Assembly: GCA_021158125.1 (NCBI GenBank)
Contig: JAGGVF010000021.1
Location: 1-45,035 of the forward strand
Reading direction: 5' to 3'
Source: Candidatus Bathyarchaeota archaeon
GTDB taxonomy: Archaea; Thermoproteota; Bathyarchaeia; Bathyarchaeales; WUQV01
DNA length: 45,035 bases
Positions within the stretch are counted from its first letter, which is position 1; each line of letters opens with the position of its first letter. Shown here piece by piece: positions 5,695 through 23,047 of the stretch. The notes beneath the pieces were generated by a model. The model made no database searches, was not told where the DNA came from, and saw only the letters and a list, made by a program, of their open reading frames with translations. The position numbers and the translations under genes were made by a program.

Positions 5695-5992
5695 CCATCC
5701 AATTAATGTGAAGATAAGACTAATAGGAATTTTAAGAGGCTTAGCTGAAAAAGAAGAGTTAACCATAAAACTTGAAAAGGAAACCACAATTAACAACTTA
5801 ATCCAAAAACTTGCTGGTTCATTTTCCAAAGAGTTTAAAAGAGCTCTGATAGACTCTGAACTTAATAATCCAAAACCCAATGCACTTATACTTCTAAACG
5901 GAAGAGAAATAAGCGTTCTACCGGAAGGTTTGGAAACCAAGGTTAAGAACGGAGATGAAATAATAATAGTACCCGTAACCCACGGTGGATAA
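5684..5992 (+). CDS. Ubiquitin-like MoaD/ThiS family protein
   Basis: A 102-residue beta-grasp protein ending in a free Gly-Gly (PVTHGG), the hallmark of MoaD/ThiS sulfur carriers and archaeal SAMP modifiers. The terminal glycine is normally adenylated by an E1-like enzyme and then carries sulfur for molybdopterin or thiamin synthesis or tRNA thiolation, or is attached to lysines of proteins. The start is a TTG at 5684 inside the end of the upstream gene, supported by GAGGAGG about 12 nt upstream; a GTG at 5708 is an alternative without a good site. No E1-like or MoaE gene is in the window, so the role is undecided. Confidence 0.87.
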   Translation: MKTNHPINVKIRLIGILRGLAEKEELTIKLEKETTINNLIQKLAGSFSKEFKRALIDSELNNPKPNALILLNGREISVLPEGLETKVKNGDEIIIVPVTHGG

Positions 5993-5993
5993 C

Positions 5994-6749
5994 ATGGAAA
6001 TTCTACCCATAAAAACAAAAGTCATAAAGGCCGGAGACAACCTCGCAAGAATAATCTTAGATTCAATTTACAACCAAGGAATAGAAATCAAAAACGGAGA
6101 CATAATAGCCATATCATCGAAGGTTATTTCAACCACAACTAAAAGAATAATCAATCTGAAGAAGATAAAACCCTCAAATAAAGCGCAGGAACTAGCCAAA
6201 AAATATTCTTTAGAACCAGAGTTCGTCGAGTTAATTCTAAAGGAATGCGAAAAAATCTATGGAGGAGTTAAAAAGGCGATTTTAACACTGAAAAATGGAA
6301 TCTTAACGGTTAATGCAGGGGTCGACCACAAAAATGCGCCTAAAGGCTACGCGTCTTTATGGCCTATGAACCCTCAACTTGAAGCGGACAAACTGAGAAA
6401 GGAAATCCAAGAAGCTACAGGCAGAAAAGTTGGAGTTTTAATAGTTGACAGTGAAGTTTCACCTTTAAGGCTTGGAACAAGAGGGCTTGCCTTAGCAGTT
6501 TCTGGTTTTCGTCCAGTTATAGATTATAGAGGTCGAAAGGATTTGTACGGCAAGGAAATTTTAATAACTCAACATTCGATTGCGGATGATATTGCCTCTG
6601 CAGCTCATGCTCTTATGGGCGAATCCTCAGAACTTACCCCAGCAGTCATTATCCGAAATGCGCCTATAACTTTAGATGAAAACGCAAAAAGTGAAGAAAT
6701 GAAAATTTCACGTGAAAAATGCGTCTATGCAAGCTCCTTCAAACTTTAA
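5994..6749 (+). CDS. cofE: Coenzyme F420-0:L-glutamate ligase
   Basis: CofE adds gamma-linked glutamates to F420-0 using GTP, making the mature deazaflavin coenzyme. The 251-residue protein matches the family end to end: GDIIAISSKVIST near the N-terminus, a Pro/Trp-rich central segment, GRKVGVLIVDSEVSPLRLG, then GYRGRKDLYG-like VIDYRGRKDLYG and the ADDIASAAHALMGE block. I prefer the ATG at 5994 (GGTGG 5 nt upstream); a GTG at 5985 inside the previous gene is the alternative. It indicates that the cell makes F420, which fits the FrhB-like subunit encoded at 11.8-13.3 kb. Its 3' end overlaps the convergent gene by 11 bp. Confidence 0.95.
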   Translation: MEILPIKTKVIKAGDNLARIILDSIYNQGIEIKNGDIIAISSKVISTTTKRIINLKKIKPSNKAQELAKKYSLEPEFVELILKECEKIYGGVKKAILTLKNGILTVNAGVDHKNAPKGYASLWPMNPQLEADKLRKEIQEATGRKVGVLIVDSEVSPLRLGTRGLALAVSGFRPVIDYRGRKDLYGKEILITQHSIADDIASAAHALMGESSELTPAVIIRNAPITLDENAKSEEMKISREKCVYASSFKL

Positions 6750-7541: not shown

Positions 7542-8654
7542 ATGGGAAAATGCAAAATCTGCGGAAAAAGTTCTCCGCTTATATCCAGCCAACTTGGACT
7601 GTGCAAAGAATGCATAATAAACAAGCCTGAAACTGCTCTGGAAATCGCAGAACAAATCCACGCAAAGAGTCGCTTAAACTTTGGGCTTCCACCTAAACCT
7701 CCTAAAAACCCCAATGGAATACTGTGCGGAATCTGCCAAAACAACTGCAAGATAGGCCCAGGGGAAATTGGTTACTGCGGCTTAGTAACAAACATTGGTG
7801 GAAAACTTGTACGTTTGGCAGGAACAGCCGATAAAGGGGTTTTAGAATGGTACTATGACCCATTGCCCACCAACTGTGTTGCATGGTGGTTTTGTCCCGG
7901 ATGCACTGGAAGGGGCTATCCAAAATACGCTATTCATCCGCATGCGGAAACAGACCATTCAAACCTCGCAGTTTTCTATGGAAGCTGCAGTTATGATTGC
8001 CTCTACTGCCAAAACTGGCATTACCGCCAGCTTGCAAGCAAACTGAAACCTACAATAAGCGCCAAAAACTTGGCTGAAAAAGCAGATGCACATGTTTCAT
8101 GCATATGTTACTTCGGAGGAGATCCATCTCCACAGGCCTTACATGCACTTAAGACAAGTCAACTTGCAATTGAAAAAGCTGAAAAAGAAAATCGTATCCT
8201 AAGAATTTGCTGGGAAACAAACGGGTACTTTAATCCTAAAATAGCTTTAAAAGCAGCTGAACTTTCGTTCAAAAGCGGAGGAATAGTAAAAATTGACCTC
8301 AAATTTTGGAATGAAAACTTAAATTTAGCTATTTGCGGAGTTAGCAACAAACCTACATTAGAGAATTTTAAGCTTATAGGAGAGAAATTCTACAGCAGAA
8401 GACCAGAGGTTCCAGTTCTAACAGCCAGCACCTTGCTTGTTCCAGGATACGTAGACGAAAAAGAGGTGGAACAAATAGCCAAATTCATATCCGAAGTTAA
8501 CAGAAACATACCATACACCTTGTTAGCTTTCTACCCATGCTACATTCTAAATGATCTGCCAACAACAAGCAGAAAACTAGCCTACAAATGCTACGAAACT
8601 GCGAAAAAACACTTAGATAATGTAAGAATTGGAAATGTCCACTTACTCTCATAA
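7542..8654 (+). CDS. Radical SAM protein with N-terminal zinc-ribbon-like cysteines (PflA-like)
   Basis: A 370-residue radical SAM enzyme. The CX3CX2C cluster motif is at C149, C153 and C156 (GSCSYDCLYCQNWHY), with the GGDPSP box following at about 190, as in pyruvate-formate-lyase-activating-like proteins. In front of it lie three more cysteine groups: C4/C7/C21/C24 (zinc-ribbon like), C62/C65/C69/C79 and C112/C118/C121. I start at ATG 7542; a TTG 9 bases upstream is possible. The substrate is unknown. Similar archaeal proteins are annotated only as radical SAM or activating-enzyme-like. It stands alone, divergent from the S-component gene. Confidence 0.85.
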   Translation: MGKCKICGKSSPLISSQLGLCKECIINKPETALEIAEQIHAKSRLNFGLPPKPPKNPNGILCGICQNNCKIGPGEIGYCGLVTNIGGKLVRLAGTADKGVLEWYYDPLPTNCVAWWFCPGCTGRGYPKYAIHPHAETDHSNLAVFYGSCSYDCLYCQNWHYRQLASKLKPTISAKNLAEKADAHVSCICYFGGDPSPQALHALKTSQLAIEKAEKENRILRICWETNGYFNPKIALKAAELSFKSGGIVKIDLKFWNENLNLAICGVSNKPTLENFKLIGEKFYSRRPEVPVLTASTLLVPGYVDEKEVEQIAKFISEVNRNIPYTLLAFYPCYILNDLPTTSRKLAYKCYETAKKHLDNVRIGNVHLLS

Positions 8655-8676
8655 GTAAAATGGCAGAATTGGAAAA

Positions 8677-8685
8677 TTATTTAAA
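8677..8685 (+). promoter_or_regulatory. Candidate TATA box for the HhH membrane protein gene
   Basis: TTATTTAAA lies about 40 nt before the ATG at 8724, with GAGGAG between them as a ribosome binding site. Spacing fits an archaeal promoter with a short leader. Confidence 0.4.
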
Positions 8686-8723
8686 GGATTCAACAAAATA
8701 TGGTTGGCTAGAGGAGAATTAGA

Positions 8724-9182
8724 ATGAGACCTGATGTTCCACTTTACATAATCGCCATAGTTTGTTTCGCCCTAGCTGGATACCTACAATGCACATCATA
8801 TCCAGAACAATTCGCTTACATAATAACCCTAACTGTGCTCGGCGTCATATTCCTAGGCGCAGGATACTCAATGAAGCCGAAACCCATTGTAATAAAAACC
8901 AAAGAGCAACCACAAATTTCAGAAACCCAAGAAGCGGAGGCTGCACCTAAAATTGAAAGCGAGACAAAAGTAGCAGTAACCGAAGAGAAAACAGCTTTAG
9001 AACTCACTCACGTGAAAGGTATAGGCCCCAAAAGAGCTGAACAACTAAAAAGAATAGGAATACAAAGCCCAGAAGACTTAGCGAGCAAATCTTCAGAAGA
9101 ACTAGCAGAAAAACTGAAAGTCTCAACCAAAATTGCTGAAAAATGGATAAAAGCGGCAAAAAAGCTCTTAGAGAAAGACTAA
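8724..9182 (+). CDS. Membrane-anchored helix-hairpin-helix protein
   Basis: A 152-residue protein with two N-terminal transmembrane segments (about residues 5-23 and 30-48), an acidic, Glu/Lys/Thr-rich linker, and a C-terminal helix-hairpin-helix domain: HVKGIGPKRAEQLKRIGI with the GIGPKRA hairpin, then SPEDLASKSSEELAEKL and a final helical repeat. HhH domains of this type bind DNA non-specifically or mediate protein contacts. The ATG follows GAGGAG. A domain of this kind tethered to the membrane suggests DNA-membrane attachment or a structural role; this is inference. The gene stands alone, followed 69 bp later by the PPC-domain gene. Confidence 0.85.
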   Translation: MRPDVPLYIIAIVCFALAGYLQCTSYPEQFAYIITLTVLGVIFLGAGYSMKPKPIVIKTKEQPQISETQEAEAAPKIESETKVAVTEEKTALELTHVKGIGPKRAEQLKRIGIQSPEDLASKSSEELAEKLKVSTKIAEKWIKAAKKLLEKD

Positions 9183-11773: not shown

Positions 11774-13309
11774 CTATTTTTTCATAGGCCACCTTAATAT
11801 GTGCATTATATCAGTTTTCGTTATTATTCCCAACAGTTTCTTGGGGTTTTCCTTATCGACAACAAGTATTCTGCCTATTTCGTGTTCGCTCATTTTTTCA
11901 TAAACATCCATTGCGGAATCGTCTGGATATACTGTCACAAGTTTTTTGTGGGCAATTTCTTTCACTGGTACTTCTTTGCGTTTTGAGCTTGGAACCTTAG
12001 ATATGTCATCGAATGTTACTATTCCAGCTAGTTCACCGTTCTCGTTTACAACCGGGTAGCCCATGTGATGATGTTTCGTCATGATTGTAAGAACTTCCTC
12101 AGCTGTTGTTTCCGGATTAACTGTCATAACTTCCTTTGTCATTATTTGTTCGGCTTTAAGATTTGAAAGGAGACTTGTTTCGCGGGGCAATAACTCTAAC
12201 AGACGAAGGAAGGCTGGAGGAACGGGTTTTCCACTCTTTTTTCTTCTTTCAATTTCTTCAACAGCGTATTTCCTCTTAAGGAGCCCCATTTCAACGAAAT
12301 GAGCGTAAACATCTGGTTCTTCCTCTATCTCCTTAACGCGTATGGCTTTTGCTTTAACTGCGTTTTCAAATATTTTTTCACCATTTTCTGTTCTGATTAT
12401 GACTATTGACCAATCCTTTAAGGGGTGGGCTCCCCCAACGGAGATGTCGGCAAGCTCTGAGGTGAAGTCTTCGCACATTTTGCAAACGCTAAGTGTATGG
12501 GCTTCCACTTCAGGTATGGAAATGCTTGTTGTCTTTCCATCTTTTGTTAAAATTTTATACTCCTTATCTAAATCGATCCTTTGAATTTCATCGGCTTCTA
12601 TGCCATAAGTTTCCTTTAAAAACTTGGTAAGTTCTGGGAAGGAGAAGCTCCAGAGGCATATTAGGCCTATTATTATTTTGAGGCTGCCCATGATTTTGTG
12701 TTCCCATGCTTCAAGTTTTCTTAAAGCCCTAACGTGGCATGGTGTTCCGACAAAGGCAATTTTTGCTTTACCGTACTCATGTACAGCTTTTCCAAAGGCT
12801 TTAGCAACTGATGATGGAAAATATTTGCAGTCAACGGCCGATAGAAGGTCGTCCGGAACTAAGCTTATTAAGGGCTTAACCTTCACAGGAATTTCTTTTT
12901 CACCTTCTGAAGTGATGGCGCTGTCTATGAATCCTGTTTTAATTGCGTGCATAAGTAACGCTGTGATTACTCCTCCGCTGTGGCTTAGCTCTCTTAACTT
13001 TTCATCGGTAGCTTGTGCGAGAACTATTTTTCGATAATATCCTATACTTTCAGCCCGGTTTGGAGCGTCCGTTACAAAACTTAGAGTTTCAAGCAGTAGG
13101 GCTTCAGTGAATGGGCAAATATCATAGCATATGGGGCAGAACTCCACAAATTTCGTGCAGTCATGAATATAATTAAGCTTGTTTCCCTCAACTTTTAGAG
13201 CATGAACTGGACAAGCTGCTTCGCATGCGCCGCAAAGACTGCAGAACCCGGGTTCAATTATAATTTTTTTGAGGTCATTATATGCGATTAACTCTCTAGA
13301 AACTTTCAT
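11774..13309 (-). CDS. frhB: FrhB/FpoF-like F420 oxidoreductase subunit fused to a C-terminal CBS pair
   Basis: This 511-residue protein has three parts. Residues 20-66 hold two [4Fe-4S] motifs (C23/C26/C29/C33 and C51/C58/C61/C65). Residues of about 90-375 are the FrhB/FpoF domain that binds FAD and F420, with the family signatures LSHSGGVITALL, FVGTPCHVRAL, and CKMCEDFTSELADISVGG followed by WSIVIIRTENG. Residues 383-511 are a tandem CBS domain (two repeats, each ending in an LxGIVT/LLGIIT strand). The FrhB part exchanges hydride with F420; the CBS pair is a typical adenine-nucleotide sensor. It is the last gene of the A-B-C-D-H-I operon, 16 bp behind subunit I, which makes it the probable electron-entry or exit subunit of that complex. 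Confidence 0.92.
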   Translation of the reverse strand: MKVSRELIAYNDLKKIIIEPGFCSLCGACEAACPVHALKVEGNKLNYIHDCTKFVEFCPICYDICPFTEALLLETLSFVTDAPNRAESIGYYRKIVLAQATDEKLRELSHSGGVITALLMHAIKTGFIDSAITSEGEKEIPVKVKPLISLVPDDLLSAVDCKYFPSSVAKAFGKAVHEYGKAKIAFVGTPCHVRALRKLEAWEHKIMGSLKIIIGLICLWSFSFPELTKFLKETYGIEADEIQRIDLDKEYKILTKDGKTTSISIPEVEAHTLSVCKMCEDFTSELADISVGGAHPLKDWSIVIIRTENGEKIFENAVKAKAIRVKEIEEEPDVYAHFVEMGLLKRKYAVEEIERRKKSGKPVPPAFLRLLELLPRETSLLSNLKAEQIMTKEVMTVNPETTAEEVLTIMTKHHHMGYPVVNENGELAGIVTFDDISKVPSSKRKEVPVKEIAHKKLVTVYPDDSAMDVYEKMSEHEIGRILVVDKENPKKLLGIITKTDIMHILRWPMKK

Positions 13310-13325
13310 GGCATCTCACTCCAAG

Positions 13326-13688
13326 TTAAATTTCCCTCTTATATTCATAAACCATTTTCTCACGGCTGTAATTGGCAAGTTCAAATTCGCCGGTCATGGT
13401 TATCGCATTCCTCGGGCAGCTTTCAGCGCACTGCCCGCAGAACATGCACCTATCTACATAATGCTTAATTTCAGCTTCCATACCCTTCCCAATCATTTCG
13501 ATGGCCCCGGAAGGACAAACTTTGCTGCAGAGACCGCATCCAACGCATCTTCGCATATCCCAAACTGGACGGCCCCTAAAACCCTTAGGTGGAGCAACTC
13601 TTTCAAAGGGATATTTAAGAGTGGCTGGACGGCTGAAAAGCTGTTTTATGGCCTCTTTTATTATTGCCAACCCTTCACCTTCCCACAC
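13326..13688 (-). CDS. nuoI: Membrane complex subunit I, 2x[4Fe-4S] ferredoxin (NuoI/FpoI/HycF type)
   Basis: A 120-residue polyferredoxin carrying two complete cluster motifs: C48-V-G-C51-G-L-C54-S-K-V-C58-P and C81-M-F-C84-G-Q-C87-A-E-S-C91-P. In complex I and group 4 hydrogenases this subunit wires electrons between the input module and the proximal cluster in subunit B. The gene overlaps the 3' end of subunit H by 14 bp and is followed by the FrhB-CBS gene, which carries two further clusters, so the electron path FAD/F420 to FrhB clusters to I to B to D is complete on paper. Confidence 0.94.
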   Translation of the reverse strand: MWEGEGLAIIKEAIKQLFSRPATLKYPFERVAPPKGFRGRPVWDMRRCVGCGLCSKVCPSGAIEMIGKGMEAEIKHYVDRCMFCGQCAESCPRNAITMTGEFELANYSREKMVYEYKREI

Positions 13689-14640
13689 CTAAGCTGATAA
13701 GTATAACCTGCAATGTGGCTAACGGAATCAAATATTTCCACATTCCGGAAACCATCTGGTCGATGCGAAATCTTGCAAATAATGCTCGGGAAATGGAAAG
13801 CAAAAGCAAGGCGAAAACAGTTTTAATCAAGAATATCACTATCGGCGGGAAAATACCCGCTGTCTGGGCGCCTCCAAGATAAAGAGAGGCTATTAAAGCC
13901 GAAGCTAGGAGCAGTTCTAAATCCTTTCCAAGCTTGAATAGAGCAAGTTTCCTTCCGCTGAATTCAGTTCTCCAACCAGCAACTATTTCTGTTTCTGCTT
14001 CCGGAATGTCAAACGGGACAAATTCAAGTTCTGCGAGGAGACATACTATGAGAATGATGAAACCTATTGGCTGAAGAAAAACCGTCCATAAACCTCTTGA
14101 ACCTTGCCACTGTACGATTCCGCTTATGGAAAGTGTTCCAGCTGACAAGGCTGGGCCTATAAGCGATAAAGCCATGGGAATTTCGTATCCAATCATCTGT
14201 AAAGCCGAACGAACACCGCCGATAATGCTGAACGAACTTGCAGAACCGTAGCCAGCCAAGAAAACCGTTAGTATGATAAGTGCTAGAATGAACATAAGAA
14301 ATATGAGGTCTCCTTCAAAACTTACTATTGCCGCTTCATTTATCATTGGAATCAAAAATAGAGCGGTTAGGGCCAATGAAAAGTGAATTATTGGTGTTAA
14401 AGTGAAAATCGGTTTGTCAGCTGAATTTGGAGTTATATCCTCTTTTGAAAGAAGCTTCATAAAGTCTGCTATTGGCTGAAGTATTCCAGAAAGGCCTGTA
14501 TATAGTGGCCCATAACGGCTTTGAATCCTCGCCACGACCTTGCGGTCTATCCACTCAAATAGAAAAGCAAGAAAAATAAGGAAAGCAGCGCCTGGGAAAA
14601 TTAAGATTTGGAATAGAGTCACTAGCATGTTTTGTACCAT
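13675..14640 (-). CDS. nuoH: Membrane complex subunit H (NuoH/FpoH)
   Basis: A 321-residue membrane protein with about eight transmembrane segments; it joins the peripheral arm to the ion-pumping arm. The characteristic first cytoplasmic loop FEWIDRKVVARIQSRYGP is present, as are the acidic loop around EFVPFDIPEAETEIVAGWRTE and the long helices. Its start codon lies inside the end of subunit D (19-bp overlap), and its end overlaps subunit I, showing translational coupling. The acidic DIPEAETE loop is shared by complex I and group 4 hydrogenases and does not by itself separate them. Confidence 0.95.
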   Translation of the reverse strand: MVQNMLVTLFQILIFPGAAFLIFLAFLFEWIDRKVVARIQSRYGPLYTGLSGILQPIADFMKLLSKEDITPNSADKPIFTLTPIIHFSLALTALFLIPMINEAAIVSFEGDLIFLMFILALIILTVFLAGYGSASSFSIIGGVRSALQMIGYEIPMALSLIGPALSAGTLSISGIVQWQGSRGLWTVFLQPIGFIILIVCLLAELEFVPFDIPEAETEIVAGWRTEFSGRKLALFKLGKDLELLLASALIASLYLGGAQTAGIFPPIVIFLIKTVFALLLLSISRALFARFRIDQMVSGMWKYLIPLATLQVILISLGVGR

Positions 14641-15806
14641 TTTCGTGCATACCTCCTAAGAGAATCAAAATCTAGAACGGTTTTCCTTCCGTTTTTCACG
14701 TCGACAAGTGCAAGTCTGTCCATACATGCGAAACATGGGTCTATTCCAGCCAAAACTATCGGTATGTCAGCTACATGTTGGCCTAAAAGCATTTTACATA
14801 AAGCTGGAATATTCCCTAGGGTTGGACTTCTAACTTTGTAACGTTCAGGCTTAGTAGTTCCATTAGCTTTTGCATAGTGAATAAGTTCTCCCCTTGGAGC
14901 TTCAACCCTCGAAACAACTTCGCCGGGCTTAACAGCCATGGGCACTCTGACACGTGTCATACCGGACGGCATATTGTCCAACGCGTAACGTATTATGTTT
15001 ATGCTTTCAAGCATTTCCTCGCAGCGAACGATTATTCTGGCGAAGACGTCGCATCCGTCATTGGTAATTACGTTAAATGGAATTTCATCATATGCTGCGT
15101 ATGGGTCGTCTTTGCGTACATCGTTTTTTATTCCGCTTGCACGTAGAGTTGGGCCTACAGCGCAAAGTTCAACTGCATCCTTAGGCTTTAAAATTCCGAC
15201 ATCAACAGTTCTTTTCAGAATAGTCTGCTCAGAACTTATGGCTTTAATGTAATATTTGATTCTTTTTTCTAGGAAGTCTAATCCCTTCTTTATTTTAGGA
15301 ATCATTTCCGCTGGGATGTCCCTTCTAACTCCTCCTATGGTGTTCATCGCGTAGTGGACGCGGTTTCCGGATACGAATTCAAGTATGTTCATTACTGCTT
15401 CTCTGTCTCGCCATAAATGCATGAAGAGCGTGTCAAAGCCTATTTCATGTGCGGCTATGCCGACCCATAAGGAGTGACTATGAATTCTCTCTAGTTCAGC
15501 TACTACTACGCGTATGTAGTTTGCCCTCGGCGGAGCCTCTACGTCTAAAAGTTCTTCTATTGCTTGACAGTAGCATGTTGTGTGGGCGTCCGAGCATATT
15601 CCGCATATGCGTTCGGCTAAGTAAATGTTCTGTATATAGGTTCGAACTTCCATTGCCTTTTCAATTCCGCGGTGGTTGTAGCCTATACGCGGCTTGACAT
15701 TCACGATTATGTCGCCGTCAACTTCGAAGGTGAAGTTTTCTGGTTCTTTAAGCGCAGGATGCTGGGGGCCAAATGGAACTCTTACAATTGAACCGTAACC
15801 CATCAT
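14622..15806 (-). CDS. nuoD: [NiFe]-hydrogenase large-subunit-like catalytic subunit D (group 4 type)
   Basis: A 394-residue homologue of NuoD/FpoD. Unlike those, it keeps both nickel-binding pairs: C68 and C71 in RICGICSDAH (with H75) and C358 and C361 in DPCFACMDR near the C-terminus. In complex I and Fpo the corresponding cysteines are lost. The opening VPFGPQHPALKEPENF also matches membrane-bound group 4 hydrogenases. It should therefore bind a Ni-Fe(CN)2CO site and interconvert protons and H2. The protein ends 33 residues after C361. No hydrogenase maturation (hyp) gene is in the window. The gene abuts subunit C (no gap) and overlaps subunit H. FpoD is the alternative annotation and is rejected on the motifs. 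Confidence 0.93.
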   Translation of the reverse strand: MMGYGSIVRVPFGPQHPALKEPENFTFEVDGDIIVNVKPRIGYNHRGIEKAMEVRTYIQNIYLAERICGICSDAHTTCYCQAIEELLDVEAPPRANYIRVVVAELERIHSHSLWVGIAAHEIGFDTLFMHLWRDREAVMNILEFVSGNRVHYAMNTIGGVRRDIPAEMIPKIKKGLDFLEKRIKYYIKAISSEQTILKRTVDVGILKPKDAVELCAVGPTLRASGIKNDVRKDDPYAAYDEIPFNVITNDGCDVFARIIVRCEEMLESINIIRYALDNMPSGMTRVRVPMAVKPGEVVSRVEAPRGELIHYAKANGTTKPERYKVRSPTLGNIPALCKMLLGQHVADIPIVLAGIDPCFACMDRLALVDVKNGRKTVLDFDSLRRYARKWYKTC

Positions 15807-16286
15807 TTATTCCTCCATGCTTTGAGTTATTTTCCTCATTTCTTCAGGCATGTTCTCCTTTCTAAGCGGATAAAGCCCCTCTGGCCATTCTTCAGGGAGG
15901 ATGAGCCGTGAAAGGTCGGGGTGCCCTTCAAAAACGACGCCTAAAAGGTCATGAACTTCCCTTTCATAGAGAGTTGCTCCGGGAACTAAATCAACAATTG
16001 AAGCGATTTTTGGGTTATCCTTTGGTACACTTAATCTCAGAGAGATTTCTATAGAGCCTTCGTAGGCGAAATGATAAATTAGTTCAATTTCCTCTCCTAA
16101 GTCTACACCAGTTATTGTCGACAAATGTTTTACGTTGAGTTCTCTACTTAAAAAGGAAACAGCATCCTTTATCGCTTCTTTTCTAATTTTAACAAAAATT
16201 CTTCTTGTTCTCGGAACACTGGCCTCTAAAAAGTTGTTTCTGAGAAACTTCTTCATTTTTTCAACTATCTCATCTTCAGAAAACAT
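15807..16286 (-). CDS. nuoC: Membrane complex subunit C (NuoC/FpoC, 30 kDa type)
   Basis: A 159-residue peripheral-arm subunit. The family's conserved C-terminal block is clear: YEREVHDLLGVVFEGHPDLSR, then LPEEWPEGLYPLRKE. It helps dock the peripheral arm and lies next to subunit D in the complex. The gene is packed between B (1-bp gap) and D (no gap). The N-terminal 60 residues are more divergent and predicted helical. Confidence 0.94.
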   Translation of the reverse strand: MFSEDEIVEKMKKFLRNNFLEASVPRTRRIFVKIRKEAIKDAVSFLSRELNVKHLSTITGVDLGEEIELIYHFAYEGSIEISLRLSVPKDNPKIASIVDLVPGATLYEREVHDLLGVVFEGHPDLSRLILPEEWPEGLYPLRKENMPEEMRKITQSMEE

Positions 16287-16287
16287 T

Positions 16288-16707
16288 CTATTCGCCTCTC
16301 TTCCCTATTTTTTGAATAAGCTTTGCTATTCCGTCGATTATTGCCTCCGGTTTAGGTGGACATCCTGGAACGTAGACGTCGACTGGCAGTACTGCGTCAA
16401 CTCCGCTGTGAACGTTGTAGCAATCTTTGAAGGGGGCTCCGCTGCATGCGCATGAACCTATTGCGATTACATATTTCGGTTCAGGCATTTGCTCATAAAC
16501 CCTCACCAGTCGATTTCTAACTTGTAGGGTTACTGGGCCAGTAACCGCTAGGATGTCTGCGTGGCGGGGGCTTCCCTCTAGTAAAATTCCGAATCTTTCA
16601 ACGTCAAATCTCGGAGTTAAAGCCGCCACAAGTTCTATGTCACAGCCGTTGCATCCACCGGTGTTAAAGTGCAATAGCCAAGGGGATTTTTTAAATGCCC
16701 ACTTCAT
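16288..16707 (-). CDS. nuoB: Hydrogenase small-subunit-like subunit B (group 4 type)
   Basis: A 139-residue subunit carrying the proximal [4Fe-4S] cluster, with ligands C19 and C22 (GGCNGCDIE), C86 (GSCACSG) and C116 (VPGCPPKPEA). The C-x-x-C spacing in GGCNGCDIE is the hydrogenase arrangement; NuoB and FpoB of complex I-type enzymes carry adjacent cysteines instead. This agrees independently with the intact nickel site in subunit D. It lies 9 bp after subunit A in the same operon. Confidence 0.94.
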   Translation of the reverse strand: MKWAFKKSPWLLHFNTGGCNGCDIELVAALTPRFDVERFGILLEGSPRHADILAVTGPVTLQVRNRLVRVYEQMPEPKYVIAIGSCACSGAPFKDCYNVHSGVDAVLPVDVYVPGCPPKPEAIIDGIAKLIQKIGKRGE

Positions 16708-16716
16708 AACTACCGT

Positions 16717-17058
16717 TTAGACACGCCTCCTCATGATTAGGAAGGTGAATACAGCCATCAGAACAATCAACGAATAAATTGTTGGAAGATACCACGGTGC
16801 AGAGAATGATATTGCAATTAGAAATGCGAAGACGTCAAATATTAGAAAGTAAACGGCGAAAATGAAGAATCTTTCAAGGTTTAATCTAACTTCTCCAACT
16901 GGTGGAGGTTCTTCTCCGCATGCGTAGGAAATAGTCTTTCCCCTTTCCTTCTTTTTCCCTTTCGCAGAGATTTTTCCTCCAATTAAATATATCAATAAGC
17001 CGAGTGAAAATGAAAATGCGAAAGCTGCGAGCAACAGAATAAGCGGGTTACCTTCCAT
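16717..17058 (-). CDS. nuoA: Membrane complex subunit A (NuoA/FpoA)
   Basis: A 113-residue membrane protein with three transmembrane segments. The cytoplasmic loop TISYACGEEPPPVGEVRLNLERFFIFAVYFLIFDV contains, in order, the conserved Cys, the Glu pair and the RF.....FLIFDVE-like stretch of NuoA (here FDVFAF, without the usual Glu after FDV). It is the first gene of the minus-strand operon. NuoA-type subunits are usual in complex I and Fpo but are not part of classical Ech, Mbh or Hyc hydrogenases, which makes its presence beside a hydrogenase-type D subunit notable. Confidence 0.92.
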   Translation of the reverse strand: MEGNPLILLLAAFAFSFSLGLLIYLIGGKISAKGKKKERGKTISYACGEEPPPVGEVRLNLERFFIFAVYFLIFDVFAFLIAISFSAPWYLPTIYSLIVLMAVFTFLIMRRRV

Positions 17059-17203: not shown

Positions 17204-17455
17204 ACGGTCAATGAAATAGCACAATTTGCACTAATAATTTTGGCGTTAATGTTTGCAATACTAACCGTTGAGCTAAAGGATATTCTTTACGCCATCTTAA
17301 GCTTCTGCGGAATGTGCATCACCATCGGGGCATTATTCTGGATTCTAAACGCCCCCTACGTTGCAGTCTTTCAACTACTAGTCTACGCCGGGGCAATAGT
17401 AGCACTGTTTATAGCGGCAGTCATGCTTACAGCGAGAAAAGAACGTTTAGGGTGA
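17204..17455 (+). CDS. nuoJ: Membrane complex subunit J, N-terminal half (NuoJ/FpoJ1), start uncertain
   Basis: The product (83 residues from the ACG at 17204, 71 from the TTG at 17240) is the first half of NuoJ: helices around QFALIILALMFAILTV, ILYAILSFCGMCITIGALF and the conserved FQLLVYAGAIVALFIAAVMLT. No ATG, GTG or TTG gives a full-length first helix: the TTG at 17240 cuts it in half. The frame is open back to 17198, and an ACG at 17204 lies 10 nt behind GGGGAG and would give the expected length. An ATG at 17194 directly after that site reads only seven codons in another frame. So either a near-cognate start or an indel is involved. J2 follows immediately. Confidence 0.8.
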   Translation, partial: TVNEIAQFALIILALMFAILTVELKDILYAILSFCGMCITIGALFWILNAPYVAVFQLLVYAGAIVALFIAAVMLTARKERLG

Positions 17456-17460
17456 AAGAA

Positions 17461-17736
17461 ATGAGCATGGACAAAATAGAGATCGCAGGACTAATCTTGG
17501 TTATAACCGCAATTACTCTAGTATTTGTTTTCATTTTAGAGAACAGCTTTCCAGCATTTATTCTCGCAGAAAATCATTGGAAACCAGTTGAAATTTCAGG
17601 ACGTGCAGGCGCTGAAACAGCTTATTTCATGTGGAACTACCGCTCTTTAGATTTGATCGCGCAAGTTTCGGCTCTTTTCGGAGCGGCAGTTGGATGCTTA
17701 GCAATTTTAAGAAAGGAAAAGGAAGGGAGAAAATGA
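17461..17736 (+). CDS. Membrane complex subunit J, C-terminal half (FpoJ2 type)
   Basis: A 91-residue protein with two transmembrane segments, one near the N-terminus (IAGLILVITAITLVFVFIL) and one at the end in LDLIAQVSALFGAAVGCLAILRKEK, a typical ending of NuoJ. Together with the preceding gene it makes up one NuoJ; splitting of J into two genes is known for Fpo operons of methanogens. The ATG at 17461 follows GGTGA. Its stop overlaps the ATG of subunit K (ATGA). Confidence 0.82.
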   Translation: MSMDKIEIAGLILVITAITLVFVFILENSFPAFILAENHWKPVEISGRAGAETAYFMWNYRSLDLIAQVSALFGAAVGCLAILRKEKEGRK

Positions 17737-18047
17737 ATACGCTAGATTATTATGTTGCATTTTCAATAGCCCTCTATGTTATCGGAATTTACTGCCTTGC
17801 AACAAAGAGGAACATGATAAGAGCCGTTTTAGGAATTGAAATTCTAATAAATGCTGCAAATATAAACTTCATTGCCTTCTCAGCCTATAGAGCCGAAGGA
17901 TTCATTGATCCATTTGCCCATTCAGTTGTGATAATTTCCATAGCCCTAGCTGGCTGTGTAAGCGCTGTTGCCCTAGCCTTAATTGTTTACGCTTACAAGC
18001 ATTACGGCACTTTAGACATTAGAAAACTTAGACGTTTGAGGGGATAG
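17733..18047 (+). CDS. nuoK: Membrane complex subunit K (NuoK/FpoK/MrpC type)
   Basis: A 104-residue protein with three transmembrane helices. The glutamates used in proton transfer by this family are visible in the second helix (VLGIEILINAANINF), although the third-helix region SVVIISIALAGCVSAVALALIVY lacks an obvious second Glu, more like hydrogenase/Mrp K-type subunits. GGAAGGGAG precedes the ATG. It overlaps J2 by 4 bp and is 3 bp from the next gene. Confidence 0.92.
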   Translation: MNTLDYYVAFSIALYVIGIYCLATKRNMIRAVLGIEILINAANINFIAFSAYRAEGFIDPFAHSVVIISIALAGCVSAVALALIVYAYKHYGTLDIRKLRRLRG

Positions 18048-18050
18048 GAA

Positions 18051-19505
18051 GTGTTCAGCTTACCCTTGGACATAGTATTACTGTTCACACTGACCACTCC
18101 GATTGTAGGGTGGATATCGTTAAAGCTTCATCTCAAAAGTCTTTGCGGAATCTATTCGGCAATTGGCTTAACAATATCTGGATACGCACTTTATGAAATT
18201 TCTGTTAATGCTTTATCAACTCCTATAATTATTCCGTTAAACGCTGAACCGTTTCAATCATGCCTCAGAATAGACGCTTTAGGCATATTCATGTCATTTA
18301 CTTTCATTTTAATTGGGCTGCTCATCGCTGTCTATTCGATTAAGTTTATCAAAACAGACATTAATGCTGCTCTTTACTATACGCTGTTATTAGCAATGAT
18401 TGCCGGAATGATCGGAGTTGTTTTCGCTGGAGATTTTTTCACCCTGTTCATTTTTTGGGAACTTATGTGCATAACCTCTTATGTGCTAGTTGCCTTCAGA
18501 AAACAGCATTGGGAACCAGTTGAGGCTGGATTAAAATATCTTGTTATGAGCTCTGCTGGAAGCGCCACAGTTCTATTTGGGCTTTCTATCCTTTACGGTT
18601 TAACTGGAACTTTAAATTTCGTTCAACTTGCAAATGCAACAAAAACCCTGCCTAACGGCTGGGGATACATAAGCTGGATGTTAATTCTCTCCGGTTTTGG
18701 AATTAAAGCGGCGATTTTTCCGCTTCATACGTGGCTGCCGGACGCGTATTCAGCGGCTCCATCTCCAATTTCAGCTATTCTCTCAGCAGTTGTAACAGAA
18801 ACCGGAATCTACGCCTTGTGCCGAACGTTCTTCACAGCGTTTGTTCCATTGCAAGTTGAATGGTCAACAATTTTGGCGGTTTTAAGCGTCATAACAATGA
18901 CGTTCGGAAACATTACTGCCTTGCTTCAAACAGACTTGAAAAGACTGCTTGCATACTCAAGTATAGGACACATTGGATACATGCTTACCGGTCTAGCCGT
19001 CGGAACTCAACTTGGCTTAACTGGCACGGTTTTACACATATTTAATCATGCATTAATGAAAGGCGCCGCCTTTCTCTGTGCAGGAGCAATCATTTACAGA
19101 ATTGGAAAAAGAAGGCTGGATGAGATTGCTGGAATAGGAAGGAAAATGCCGGCTACAACTATTGCCTTTGGAATATCCCTCTTTGCACTAACTGGAATGC
19201 CTCCTCTAAACGGGTTTGTAAGCGAATTAACACTTTTCATGTCAACTGTTCAAGCGAACATGGCGTGGCTGGGAATATCCATAATTCTGAACAGCGCCTT
19301 TTCCGCAGGCTACGTTCTACGGGTTATACGTGCACTTTTACAGTCATCAAAAGAAGACAAGTTTAAAAATGTGAAAGAAGCCCCAATCACCATGTTGTCG
19401 CCAATTTGTTTAATGGCCGCTTTAATTATAATCTTCGGATTATGGCCAGATCCAATTTTAGACTTCGCTAGAAAGGCTGCAGCCGGGCTCTTATTTACAA
19501 CTTAG
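18051..19505 (+). CDS. nuoN: Antiporter-like ion-pumping subunit, NuoN/MrpD type
   Basis: A 484-residue protein with about 14 transmembrane helices, one of three antiporter-like subunits here. The helix-5 glutamate is kept (E137 in FIFWELMC) and the helix-7 lysine is kept (K219 in FGIKAAIFPLHTWLPDA). The central lysine before AYSSIGHIGYM is also present (QTDLKRLLAYSS). In helix 8 the usual lysine is replaced by Glu (E250 in AVVTETGIYAL). It starts with GTG at 18051, 3 bp after subunit K. Assignment as N rather than M or MrpD is by order and length; the families are close. Confidence 0.9.
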   Translation: MFSLPLDIVLLFTLTTPIVGWISLKLHLKSLCGIYSAIGLTISGYALYEISVNALSTPIIIPLNAEPFQSCLRIDALGIFMSFTFILIGLLIAVYSIKFIKTDINAALYYTLLLAMIAGMIGVVFAGDFFTLFIFWELMCITSYVLVAFRKQHWEPVEAGLKYLVMSSAGSATVLFGLSILYGLTGTLNFVQLANATKTLPNGWGYISWMLILSGFGIKAAIFPLHTWLPDAYSAAPSPISAILSAVVTETGIYALCRTFFTAFVPLQVEWSTILAVLSVITMTFGNITALLQTDLKRLLAYSSIGHIGYMLTGLAVGTQLGLTGTVLHIFNHALMKGAAFLCAGAIIYRIGKRRLDEIAGIGRKMPATTIAFGISLFALTGMPPLNGFVSELTLFMSTVQANMAWLGISIILNSAFSAGYVLRVIRALLQSSKEDKFKNVKEAPITMLSPICLMAALIIIFGLWPDPILDFARKAAAGLLFTT

Positions 19506-19516
19506 AGGGATGTTGT

Positions 19517-21559
19517 ATGATATGGGATGAAAATCTTGTCCCTTGGCTTTGCTGGGTCTTCCCAACAGTAGGCGCTTTATTCGCGCTGCTTTTGGCTAAA
19601 GTTGATAGAAAATTGAGAGATGTAACAGTTACCATTTTCTCATTTCTAGGCTGGCTTATGGCCGCATTTATGATTCCAGAGCTGTTAACACCAAAATATA
19701 TTGACAAAGCTGCTTTTTGGATAACTCTTCCAAATGGCACTTCAGTTGGAATGGGGATGCTCATAGACCCACTAAGCATAATTCTCGCAAACGTCGTAGC
19801 TTTCCTAGGCTTCGTCATAATGGTTTATTCAATTAAATATATGGAAAACGAGCCCGGTCAAACACGCTACTGGTTTCTCATGTCCCTCTTCATAGGCAGC
19901 ATGCTTCTACTAGTCTTGGCAGACAATCTAATACTGTTTTTCGTAGGCTGGAAAATAGTCGGCTTGTGTAGCTATGCCCTCATCGGACATTACTACAGCG
20001 ATGAAAGGGAACATTGGATCGGTGGCCCTGAGCCTTTCCAGTTCCAAAAGCCGTCAAGATGCGGGTTGAAAGCCTTGCTTGTCACAACTTTTGGGGATGT
20101 CTCCCTACTGGCTGGAATCATAATCCTATACATTTACTCGGGCACCTTCAATTTTGTAGAACTTTATCAAACTGCTAGTTCTTGGCTGGGAAGCATTGCT
20201 GCAAGCCCCGGAATGATAACTTTAGCGTCCATTCTCATTCTAGGCGGTCCAATAGCCAAGTCTGCTCAGTTTCCGCTTCACGAGTGGCTTCCAGAAGCCA
20301 TGGCCGGGCCGACTCCCGTTTCAGCGCTTATTCACGCCGCAACCATGGTTAAAGCAGGAGTCTATTTTGTTGCGCGAATACTGCCTATATTTTTCTATGC
20401 TTACTGGATAGCTAATTATCCAGAAGCCAGCGTATTCTTCTTATTAGTAGCAGCCATTGGGGCTTTCACAGCTTTTCTAACTGGAACTCAGGCTATGGTT
20501 TCTCTGGAGCTGAAAAAGGCTTTGGCCTATTCAACTATGAGTCAGATTGGCTACATGATGCTCGCTTTGGGTGTTGCAGGCTTAAGCGTAAACACTTTAG
20601 CTTCTGGAGTTTCAGCCGGAATCTTCCATTTAATAAGTCACGGAATCTTTAAGGCTGCCTTGTTCCTTTGCGCAGGGGTTTTAATTCATGTTTCAGGCTC
20701 GATTTATATGTCTGAGATGAAAGTTTCGAGGCGTAGTATGCGCTTTACATGGCTTTTCATGTGGATAGCCTCATTATCGCTGATGGGAGTCCCGCCCTTC
20801 TCTGGCTTTTGGAGCAAAGATGAAGTTTTAGCTTCATGCTTAGAAAGTGGACAAATAGTTCTGTTCATAGTGGCTTTAATAACCGTTGCAGTCACATGCT
20901 TCTACACTGTACGTTTTATGGGAATGATATTCCACAACAAAGAAAAAAGTGAAACTGAAACTAAAGAAGCCAACGCTTTAATGCTTGTCCCCTACGGAGT
21001 ACTCGCTGCTTTAACTGTAGCACTCGGACTAATCGGCCCGTGGACTGGAAGTTTCCTCAACAAAACCTTTGAGAAATACTTTACTGAGTCACTTGGCTTA
21101 ACCATCAGCGGCAGCGGAATAACCTCTGCCAGCTCCAACATTGTTGGTTCATCGTCAATTCCCTTAGGCATAATTCTTCCAATAATTTCAATTTTAGCAA
21201 TTATAATTGGAGCCATTCCAGCTTACAGGTTTTATATTTCACATAAAGGCAAACCAGAAGAAATTGTGAATAAGCATAATGCCTTACAGTGGCTTCATAG
21301 GTTTCTCTGGAACCGCTGGTACATTGACGCCTTCTACAATAAATTATTTGTACGGGGAGCGCTCTCTCTAAGAAGCCCTCTAGTCAGATTCGTTGAGAAC
21401 CCCATCGATTACGCCTTAAATGTTGGAGTTCCAAACTTTTTCGCCGCTGCTAACAAGGGGCTTCGAAAAATTCAGACAGGAATACTTTCAATTAACATGC
21501 TTTACATAGCGGGGTTCCTTGTTGTCCTTTTCATCGTGTTGTGGTTGGGGGTGTTGTAA
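19517..21559 (+). CDS. nuoL: Antiporter-like ion-pumping subunit L (NuoL/FpoL) with E-to-K change
   Basis: A 680-residue protein with about 16 transmembrane segments and the long C-terminal extension that in NuoL carries the lateral helix. Family blocks are clear: DPLSIIL, GLCSYALIGHYY, AQFPLHEWLPEAMAGPTPVSALIHAATMVKAGVY, LKKALAYSTMSQIGYM, GVPPFSGFWSKDE. At residue 146 the strictly conserved helix-5 glutamate of the GWEGVGLCSY block is a lysine here (GWKIVGLCSY, codon AAA at 19952-19954). Lys in AKSAQFPL and the His of LIHAATM are kept. The next gene starts immediately after the stop. Confidence 0.95.
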   Translation: MIWDENLVPWLCWVFPTVGALFALLLAKVDRKLRDVTVTIFSFLGWLMAAFMIPELLTPKYIDKAAFWITLPNGTSVGMGMLIDPLSIILANVVAFLGFVIMVYSIKYMENEPGQTRYWFLMSLFIGSMLLLVLADNLILFFVGWKIVGLCSYALIGHYYSDEREHWIGGPEPFQFQKPSRCGLKALLVTTFGDVSLLAGIIILYIYSGTFNFVELYQTASSWLGSIAASPGMITLASILILGGPIAKSAQFPLHEWLPEAMAGPTPVSALIHAATMVKAGVYFVARILPIFFYAYWIANYPEASVFFLLVAAIGAFTAFLTGTQAMVSLELKKALAYSTMSQIGYMMLALGVAGLSVNTLASGVSAGIFHLISHGIFKAALFLCAGVLIHVSGSIYMSEMKVSRRSMRFTWLFMWIASLSLMGVPPFSGFWSKDEVLASCLESGQIVLFIVALITVAVTCFYTVRFMGMIFHNKEKSETETKEANALMLVPYGVLAALTVALGLIGPWTGSFLNKTFEKYFTESLGLTISGSGITSASSNIVGSSSIPLGIILPIISILAIIIGAIPAYRFYISHKGKPEEIVNKHNALQWLHRFLWNRWYIDAFYNKLFVRGALSLRSPLVRFVENPIDYALNVGVPNFFAAANKGLRKIQTGILSINMLYIAGFLVVLFIVLWLGVL

Positions 21560-23047
21560 ATGCAAATTCCATACCTTTTGCTCCAAACAGTTCTTTTACC
21601 AATATTTGCCGCCCCAGTTTTAGCTATACTTGGAAGAAAAATTGGCAAACATGTAGGATGGATAGCATGCGGCATCTTGACATATACCAGTGTCCTTCTC
21701 ATGATTGCCGGGTTCAGTTTATGGAGTGGAACTAGCCCAATTTATGAAGAGTATAGTTGGAGCACTGCCATCTTCAATTTGAAATTTGGCTTCTTAGCTG
21801 ATAATCTAAGTTTGCCAGTTGCTTTTATTATGAACCTTGTTTGTGCAGCTTGTGCAGCCTATTCCATTCACTACATGGAGCATAGGATAGAACAATTGTA
21901 CGGCAAAGAGAGAAGAGGAATGCATGCTATCTATTATTCGATTTATCTGCTCTTTGCAGTAGGCCTTGTGGGAGTTTCTCTTTCCACTAATCTTATTGAG
22001 CTATATGTTTTCGTTGAGTTGGCTCTAATTCCTTCCTACATTATGATAGACCTTTTCGGATACATTGACAGACATCGCATAGCTATGATGTACTTCATCT
22101 GGAACCATATAGGTGCAGCGTTATTTCTCATAGGCGTTGTTTTAGCTTTCACTGGAAACGGCGGAAGCTTCGAAGTGAACGCCCTATCCATGATTTCTGG
22201 AACACCGTTAGGTTTTTGGGTTTGTTTCTTAATTCTTCTGGGATGGCTCGTTAAAATGGCAACTTTTGGCTTTCACGTTTGGTTACCCTACGCGCATGGT
22301 GAACACCCAACCTCTATAGCTGCTATAATAGCAACTATAGTTGGATTAGGAAACTACGTGATCGTAAGGTTGCTTGTAGGCCAGCTTCAAGAAACCTTCC
22401 AACTATTCGGTTTCCCGTTAATGGTGTTGGCGTTAATAACTATGATTTATGGCGCTCTGTTAACAATTGCTCAAGATGATATTAAACGGTTATATGCGTG
22501 TTCAACTATAAGTCAGACAGCTTATTCTCTCCTTGGAATTGGAAGTCTAACAGCAATGGGAATTTCCGGGGGGATGTTCTATTTTCTAAGTCACACAATT
22601 GGCAAATGCATCCTTTTCTCAGTTGCAGGAATAATCCTCGCCCAAACTGGAATCAGAGACATGCGTAAACTGGGAGGCTTAGCGAAAAAGATGCCCCTAA
22701 CCGCAACACTCTGCATTCTAGGTTCAATGATTCTTTCCGCAATTCCACCCCTAAGCGGTTTTCAAGCCGAATGGATAATGTTTGTGGGAATTTTCCAACA
22801 AGGCAACTTTGAAGCTGCATTAAATATCGCCATAGCCTTAATCGGAATATTTGCAACTTTCCTCACAACAGTTTATACTTTCTGGCCTGTAATGCGCATC
22901 TTTTTCGGACCTCTTCCCAAATCTTTAGAAGACGTCAAAGAAGCCCCATACTCAATGACTTTACCGTTACTTATCTTAGCTTTAGTATCCTTCATCTTAG
23001 GGGTCTATCCAGACTTGATTATGCATTTTCTCTCCTCAATTATGTAA
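21560..23047 (+). CDS. nuoM: Antiporter-like ion-pumping subunit M (NuoM/FpoM)
   Basis: A 495-residue protein with about 14 transmembrane helices. The helix-5 glutamate is present (E153 in VFVELALIPSYIM), helix 7 keeps its lysine (WLVKMATFGFHVWLP), and the DDIKRLYACSTISQTAYSLLGIG block is typical of NuoM. Helix 8, usually carrying a lysine, reads IATIVGLGNYVIVRL without one. The gene directly abuts nuoL and ends the plus-strand operon. About 70 bp later comes tRNA-Glu on the other strand. Confidence 0.94.
   Translation: MQIPYLLLQTVLLPIFAAPVLAILGRKIGKHVGWIACGILTYTSVLLMIAGFSLWSGTSPIYEEYSWSTAIFNLKFGFLADNLSLPVAFIMNLVCAACAAYSIHYMEHRIEQLYGKERRGMHAIYYSIYLLFAVGLVGVSLSTNLIELYVFVELALIPSYIMIDLFGYIDRHRIAMMYFIWNHIGAALFLIGVVLAFTGNGGSFEVNALSMISGTPLGFWVCFLILLGWLVKMATFGFHVWLPYAHGEHPTSIAAIIATIVGLGNYVIVRLLVGQLQETFQLFGFPLMVLALITMIYGALLTIAQDDIKRLYACSTISQTAYSLLGIGSLTAMGISGGMFYFLSHTIGKCILFSVAGIILAQTGIRDMRKLGGLAKKMPLTATLCILGSMILSAIPPLSGFQAEWIMFVGIFQQGNFEAALNIAIALIGIFATFLTTVYTFWPVMRIFFGPLPKSLEDVKEAPYSMTLPLLILALVSFILGVYPDLIMHFLSSIM

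Follow-up and report, generated by a model that had tools for sequence, protein, structure and literature searches.

Several described systems come close to the locus analyzed here. FpoF/FqoF combines an N-terminal 2[4Fe-4S] part with an FrhB domain and has a complex-I-like partner, and FrhB of the FrhABG hydrogenase shares the FrhB fold and its Fe-S cysteines. In Bathyarchaeia, an Hfo hydrogenase with Nuo/Fpo-like subunits and the NiFe L1 and L2 motifs has been reported, with FpoFO absent and the source of F420H2 left open (Loh, Herve and Brune 2021; PMC7886697). A second survey found Bathyarchaeia fpo clusters without the F420 module (PMC8407382), and a third listed FpoF at a locus distant from the fpo genes. 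Nucleotide-binding CBS pairs are described from AcuB, MJ1225, MJ0100, the A. fulgidus site-2 protease and ClC-CBS proteins, and none of these sits on an FrhB port.

We analyzed a window of 45,035 nucleotides (contig JAGGVF010000021.1, assembly GCA_021158125.1, Candidatus Bathyarchaeota archaeon), which carries a Nuo/Fpo-like operon of this kind. Whereas Hfo was described without FpoFO, this operon includes an FpoF-like subunit that ends in a CBS pair, which we call FrhB-CBS. The fusion is real and conserved, and we found no published description of it within the limited literature searched on CBS domains together with F420 or hydrogenase. With its conservation and its place next to such hydrogenase operons, the FpoF-like subunit provides a tangible candidate for the port reported as missing, and its fused CBS pair makes it possible to test whether energy charge controls a complex-I-type enzyme allosterically through the entry subunit. 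The relevant features of the window are as follows.

5985..6749, plus strand: CofE-like F420-0:L-glutamate ligase, one of three in the genome (PF01996, E 1.2e-71; TIGR01916, 201 bits, cut-off 180.65)
11774..13309, minus strand: FrhB-CBS (2[4Fe-4S] + FrhB + CBS pair, FpoF-like), 511 aa (Pfam/NCBIfam, conservation, model pTM 0.79)
13070..13282, minus strand: its N-terminal 2[4Fe-4S] ferredoxin-like domain, residues 10-80 (eight invariant Cys; Pfam)
12320..13024, minus strand: its FrhB domain, residues 96-330, with the FAD/[4Fe-4S] hydride-carrier oxidoreductase fold (Pfam, structure match)
11795..12157, minus strand: its CBS pair (Bateman module), residues 385-505 (Pfam, conservation, structure match)
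13326..13688, minus strand: NuoI/FpoI-like 2[4Fe-4S] subunit (NCBIfam TIGR01971, 98 bits, under the cut-off of 113)
13675..14640, minus strand: NuoH-like membrane subunit (sequence reading; order conserved in relatives)
14622..15806, minus strand: NuoD-like catalytic subunit with [NiFe] ligands RICGIC (L1) and DPCFAC (L2) (motifs, profile match)
15807..16286, minus strand: NuoC-like subunit (sequence reading; conserved neighbour)
16288..16707, minus strand: NuoB-like [4Fe-4S] small subunit (sequence reading; conserved neighbour)
16717..17058, minus strand: NuoA-like subunit (Pfam PF00507, E 1.4e-7)
17314..18047, plus strand: NuoJ-like and NuoK-like subunits of the divergent arm (sequence reading; conserved neighbours)
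18051..23047, plus strand: three antiporter-like subunits (NuoM/L/N-like: 18051-19505, 19517-21559, 21560-23047) (sequence reading; conserved neighbours)

The FrhB-CBS reading frame begins with ATG and runs unbroken through the FrhB/CBS junction. Pfam recognizes Fer4 at residues 16-39, FrhB_FdhB_N at 96-171 (E 2.5e-11), FrhB_FdhB_C at 183-330 (E 7.3e-38) and two CBS repeats (E 2.4e-32; best stretch 387-439), in agreement with the initial annotation, which had described a complete FrhB domain with a tandem CBS pair directly behind it. The two extra Fe-S motifs that it had reported are also present: Cys 23, 26, 29, 33, 51, 58, 61 and 65 follow a 2[4Fe-4S] pattern and show no variation in 27/27 fusions or in 8/8 relatives lacking the CBS pair. 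For the [4Fe-4S] cluster of the FrhB domain, Cys 218, 276 and 279 are invariant among the 27 fusions, and position 191 is Cys in 24 and His in 3.

Membership of the FrhB/FdhB family is clear from both Pfam models (PF04422, 44 bits, cut-off 22; PF04432, 130 bits, cut-off 23.3). The best NCBIfam matches are FrhB models scoring under their curated cut-offs (193 of 269 and 176 of 331.5), the latter being the frhB equivalog of group 3a hydrogenases at 175.6 bits, and the curated FpoF model gives 115.7 bits against a cut-off of 475; we therefore file the protein as neither FpoF nor FrhB. Apart from this score, FrhB-CBS differs from FpoF/FqoF in its CBS pair, in a NuoD partner that keeps NiFe ligands and in the lack of any FpoO seen adjacent. 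From FrhB of FrhABG it is set apart by the extra ferredoxin domain, the CBS pair and a partner of group 4 rather than 3a.

The fusion occurs in 43 of the 151 sampled genomes of the window's order (Bathyarchaeia), two of the copies being cut or split. These fusions are 42-80% identical to the window protein, with alignments that extend into the CBS part, and named Bathyarchaeota MAGs of independent projects carry the fusion as well. Absence from close relatives had been named at the outset as the sign of an artefact; with 43 genomes sharing the architecture, an error of assembly, frame or annotation is ruled out. Nor is the fusion phylum-wide: among 398 genomes, it is confined to the same order and one contig binned as Brockarchaeota, which may reflect transfer or misbinning. 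A match in Kiritimatiellae (L080) was rejected as a fusion of this type, the protein being a CBS-HATPase; its gene (7920-8996) immediately precedes one for a NuoE-like protein and so places a CBS protein beside hydrogenase-type genes.

A sister clade of the order (G005, G027, G035 and G059) has an orthologue of 52-56% identity without the CBS pair, which lies near nuo genes at three of its four loci, so that the CBS pair is dispensable for the electron-carrying job. Another CBS-less orthologue, at 42% identity, occurs in a Methanomethylicota MAG. A tree restricted to the FrhB part separates the fusions from the remaining sequences by a single split (support 85/79); when long-branch paralogues are added, the CBS label needs two changes. 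These trees are compatible with, though not firm evidence for, a single origin in which one gain (or one loss) of the CBS pair would suffice.

In the window, the minus strand reads nuoA, nuoB, nuoC, nuoD, nuoH, nuoI and then FrhB-CBS, which starts 16 bases behind nuoI on the same strand, while the J/K-like and antiporter-like genes diverge on the plus strand. Eleven Nuo/Fpo-type subunits, A-D and H-N, are putatively assigned by similarity or reading, H and J-N by sequence reading and their conserved place in relatives. All four NiFe ligands are kept in the window NuoD (RICGIC and DPCFACMDR), and the genome contains HypD, which together make a hydrogenase most likely rather than a quinone or phenazine reductase. 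As judged from these motifs, the window complex is most likely an Fpo/Nuo-like group-4 [NiFe]-hydrogenase; a plain, non-hydrogenase Fpo is ruled out by the retained ligands. The label Hfo-type, subgroup 4g, is taken over from Loh et al. (PMC7886697), who used it for related operons. Because NuoD has all four NiFe ligands, the "respiratory control" proposed in the initial annotation is read here as control of an energy-converting hydrogenase.

FrhB-CBS is probably the point at which electrons enter or leave this complex-I-like membrane hydrogenase, and the NuoI-like subunit is its likely electron partner. Taken alone, we hold this role as an electron port to be highly probable. Confidence is evenly balanced for the fuller proposal, in which FrhB-CBS would be the peripheral, FpoF-like electron port of an Hfo-type energy-converting [NiFe] hydrogenase and its added CBS pair would sense adenine nucleotides. 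A hydride carrier (F420H2 or a related deazaflavin) would exchange electrons with the FAD of the FrhB domain, and these would pass by way of its [4Fe-4S] cluster to the two N-terminal [4Fe-4S] clusters. From there, the path would lead through NuoI and NuoB to the [NiFe] site of NuoD and H2, each step being open in both directions, and would be coupled to ion movement via NuoH and the antiporter subunits. Occupation of the CBS pair by AMP or ADP versus ATP may alter the arrangement of the CBS and FrhB parts and, in one direction or the other, the rate of the connection on the carrier side.

CBS domain pairs belong to a class of sensors for AMP, ADP and ATP. An AlphaFold model of FrhB-CBS, built from an alignment of 24 sequences (mean pLDDT 76.6), is good in the CBS part (pLDDT 87-95 per block over residues 381-500, about 90) and poor in the ferredoxin part. 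The CBS part has a two-repeat pair fold that Foldseek superposes on several solved pairs: AcuB with AMP, ADP, ATP or Ap4A (rmsd 1.4-2.3 A), MJ0100 with MTA/SAM bound (1.9 A), and the pair of the site-2 protease, to which it is 39% identical (5g5r). It also shares T-x-x-D, the ribose-binding motif of known CBS pairs, with AcuB, MJ1225, MJ0100, the site-2 protease and the ClC-type pairs. In CBS2, T497 and D500 are invariant in 26/26 fusions, although mean conservation of the CBS columns is just 0.61. In CBS1, T432 is found in 24/26, and D435 is Asp in 17, Glu in 8 and Gln in 1. Median identity to the window protein is 49% for CBS1 and 53% for CBS2, nearly as high as for FrhB (57%), and only 33% for the linker, which indicates that the CBS pair is under constraint. 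The nucleotide site thus appears from the alignment to be kept, in CBS2 more than in CBS1. The expectation that the model would contain a nucleotide pocket is borne out as far as the fold match to ligand-bound pairs and the conserved motif go.

A possible alternative, which we entertain tentatively, keeps the electron-port role of FrhB-CBS in the hydrogenase but gives its CBS pair a structural or docking role, or has it sense MTA/SAM or another adenylate (Ap4A) rather than energy charge. The fits to MJ0100 and to AcuB with Ap4A suit such other ligands, the acidic residue of CBS1 is replaced in 9/26 fusions, and the existence of CBS-less relatives points the same way. A purely structural role, however, would not require the invariant Thr and Asp of CBS2 or R480, which is kept in 24/26. 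Two further CBS pairs were noted along the way. The nearest CBS paralogue in the window genome is the C-terminal pair of a ClC-type channel (40% identity; L094:6553-8340, G000:C7), and an unfused CBS-pair protein, 129 aa long, is 53% identical to the CBS part of the fusion (L093:5294-5683, G042:C39).

F420, which the initial annotation took as the carrier, is not secure in that role. On the side of F420 are the closest solved folds: over the ferredoxin and FrhB parts, the top Foldseek match is 8riu_B (E 3.2e-23), an F420-reducing CODH component of Candidatus Ethanoperedens that is 28% identical to FrhB-CBS, lacks a CBS pair and has another partner, and further F420-linked structural relatives are Frh beta (9r51_B, TMt 0.86) and Fsr (7np8). 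The window genome also has three CofE above the equivalog cut-off. Against F420, the known route of its synthesis was not recovered in this 98.4% complete genome, where profile searches gave no match for CofC, CofD or CofG and only a chance-level one for CofH (18.9 bits). The missing genes may mean uptake of F420 from neighbours, an unlisted route or a different carrier.

The pattern is not peculiar to this genome: in the order as a whole, CofG and CofH score above their cut-offs in just 1 of 151 genomes (G092), so that no Fo synthase was found in the other 150, while both were detected in the methanogen controls. CofD is present in 78/151 genomes, 27 of them among the 43 with the fusion, and Mer scores above its cut-off in 31/151, the window genome having only a weak match of 79 bits. 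Dependence of the order on other organisms for F420 or Fo is possible, and the missing Fo synthase is a separate, testable hint of it. A review (PMC8498797) lists Bathyarchaeota among the predicted producers of F420, which does not fit the order as sampled.

Plant HCAR, a member of the FrhB family, works without F420. It is thus conceivable, if rather doubtful, that the FrhB domain here likewise uses a carrier other than F420, be it ferredoxin or an unidentified hydride carrier. HCAR (5dqr) is itself a structural match of the FrhB part, and the absent CofC, CofD, CofG and CofH, the near-total lack of CofG/CofH in the order against positive controls, and the weak Mer all favour such a carrier. 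The three CofE, the CofD of the fusion genomes and the F420 link of the closest folds weigh against it, and uptake of F420 or Fo from neighbours would be conceivable. On the boldest reading, the whole would be a hydrogenase of complex-I build whose port is adenylate-gated through the fused CBS pair, with energy-charge control at the entry subunit, in a host seemingly without F420 of its own and dependent on neighbours for F420 or Fo; as a complete picture, we offer this with low confidence. A CBS-less FrhB paralogue of ~350-390 aa was seen close to CofD in six genomes (G142:C27, G094:C3, G149:C28, G079:C1, G106:C2 and G109:C1).

The proposed link of the fusion to group-4 hydrogenase operons held up across genomes. 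FrhB-CBS lies beside hydrogenase-type nuo genes in 31 of 43 fusion genomes, and it does so in three arrangements: behind nuoI, as in the window; behind the last nuoM, where the operon order is nuoB-CD(fused)-H-I-K-L-N-M; and ahead of nuoA. Linkage in three separate positions favours a functional tie over shared descent of one gene order. In another 11 genomes, the fusion is away from the operon, sometimes near a contig end, and in one the contig is too short to tell. NuoD occurs in 40/43 fusion genomes versus 53/108 others (Fisher p = 1e-7, kinship ignored), so that about half of the fusion-less genomes also have a NuoD with NiFe-type motifs. The NuoD of relatives reads RICGIC or RVCGIC and DPCxxC in every case where the motif regions were readable. 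That FrhB-CBS is instead a stand-alone F420- or ferredoxin-linked flavoprotein with several partners, operon linkage reflecting co-regulation only, is improbable: the 11 unlinked copies and the HdrABC partner suggested for orphan FrhB (Loh et al. 2021, PMC7886697) would suit it, but the recurrent linkage in varied positions and the FpoF-module-like placement immediately behind nuoI in the window speak for a port of the hydrogenase.

The linked and unlinked loci showed some further variation. At four loci with an unlinked fusion (L053, L055, L056 and L058), the gene lies between one for an Mrp/NBP35-like ATPase and a large aconitase-like gene. A second operon type (L032, L033, L038, L039 and L116-L119) has NuoC and NuoD apparently fused, and its NuoD often stops right after the L2 motif (DPCFSCTDR), whereas the window NuoD continues beyond it. 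At L048 (G143), NuoH directly follows NuoA, and NuoB, C, D and I are absent from the contig, with NuoD located on another one.
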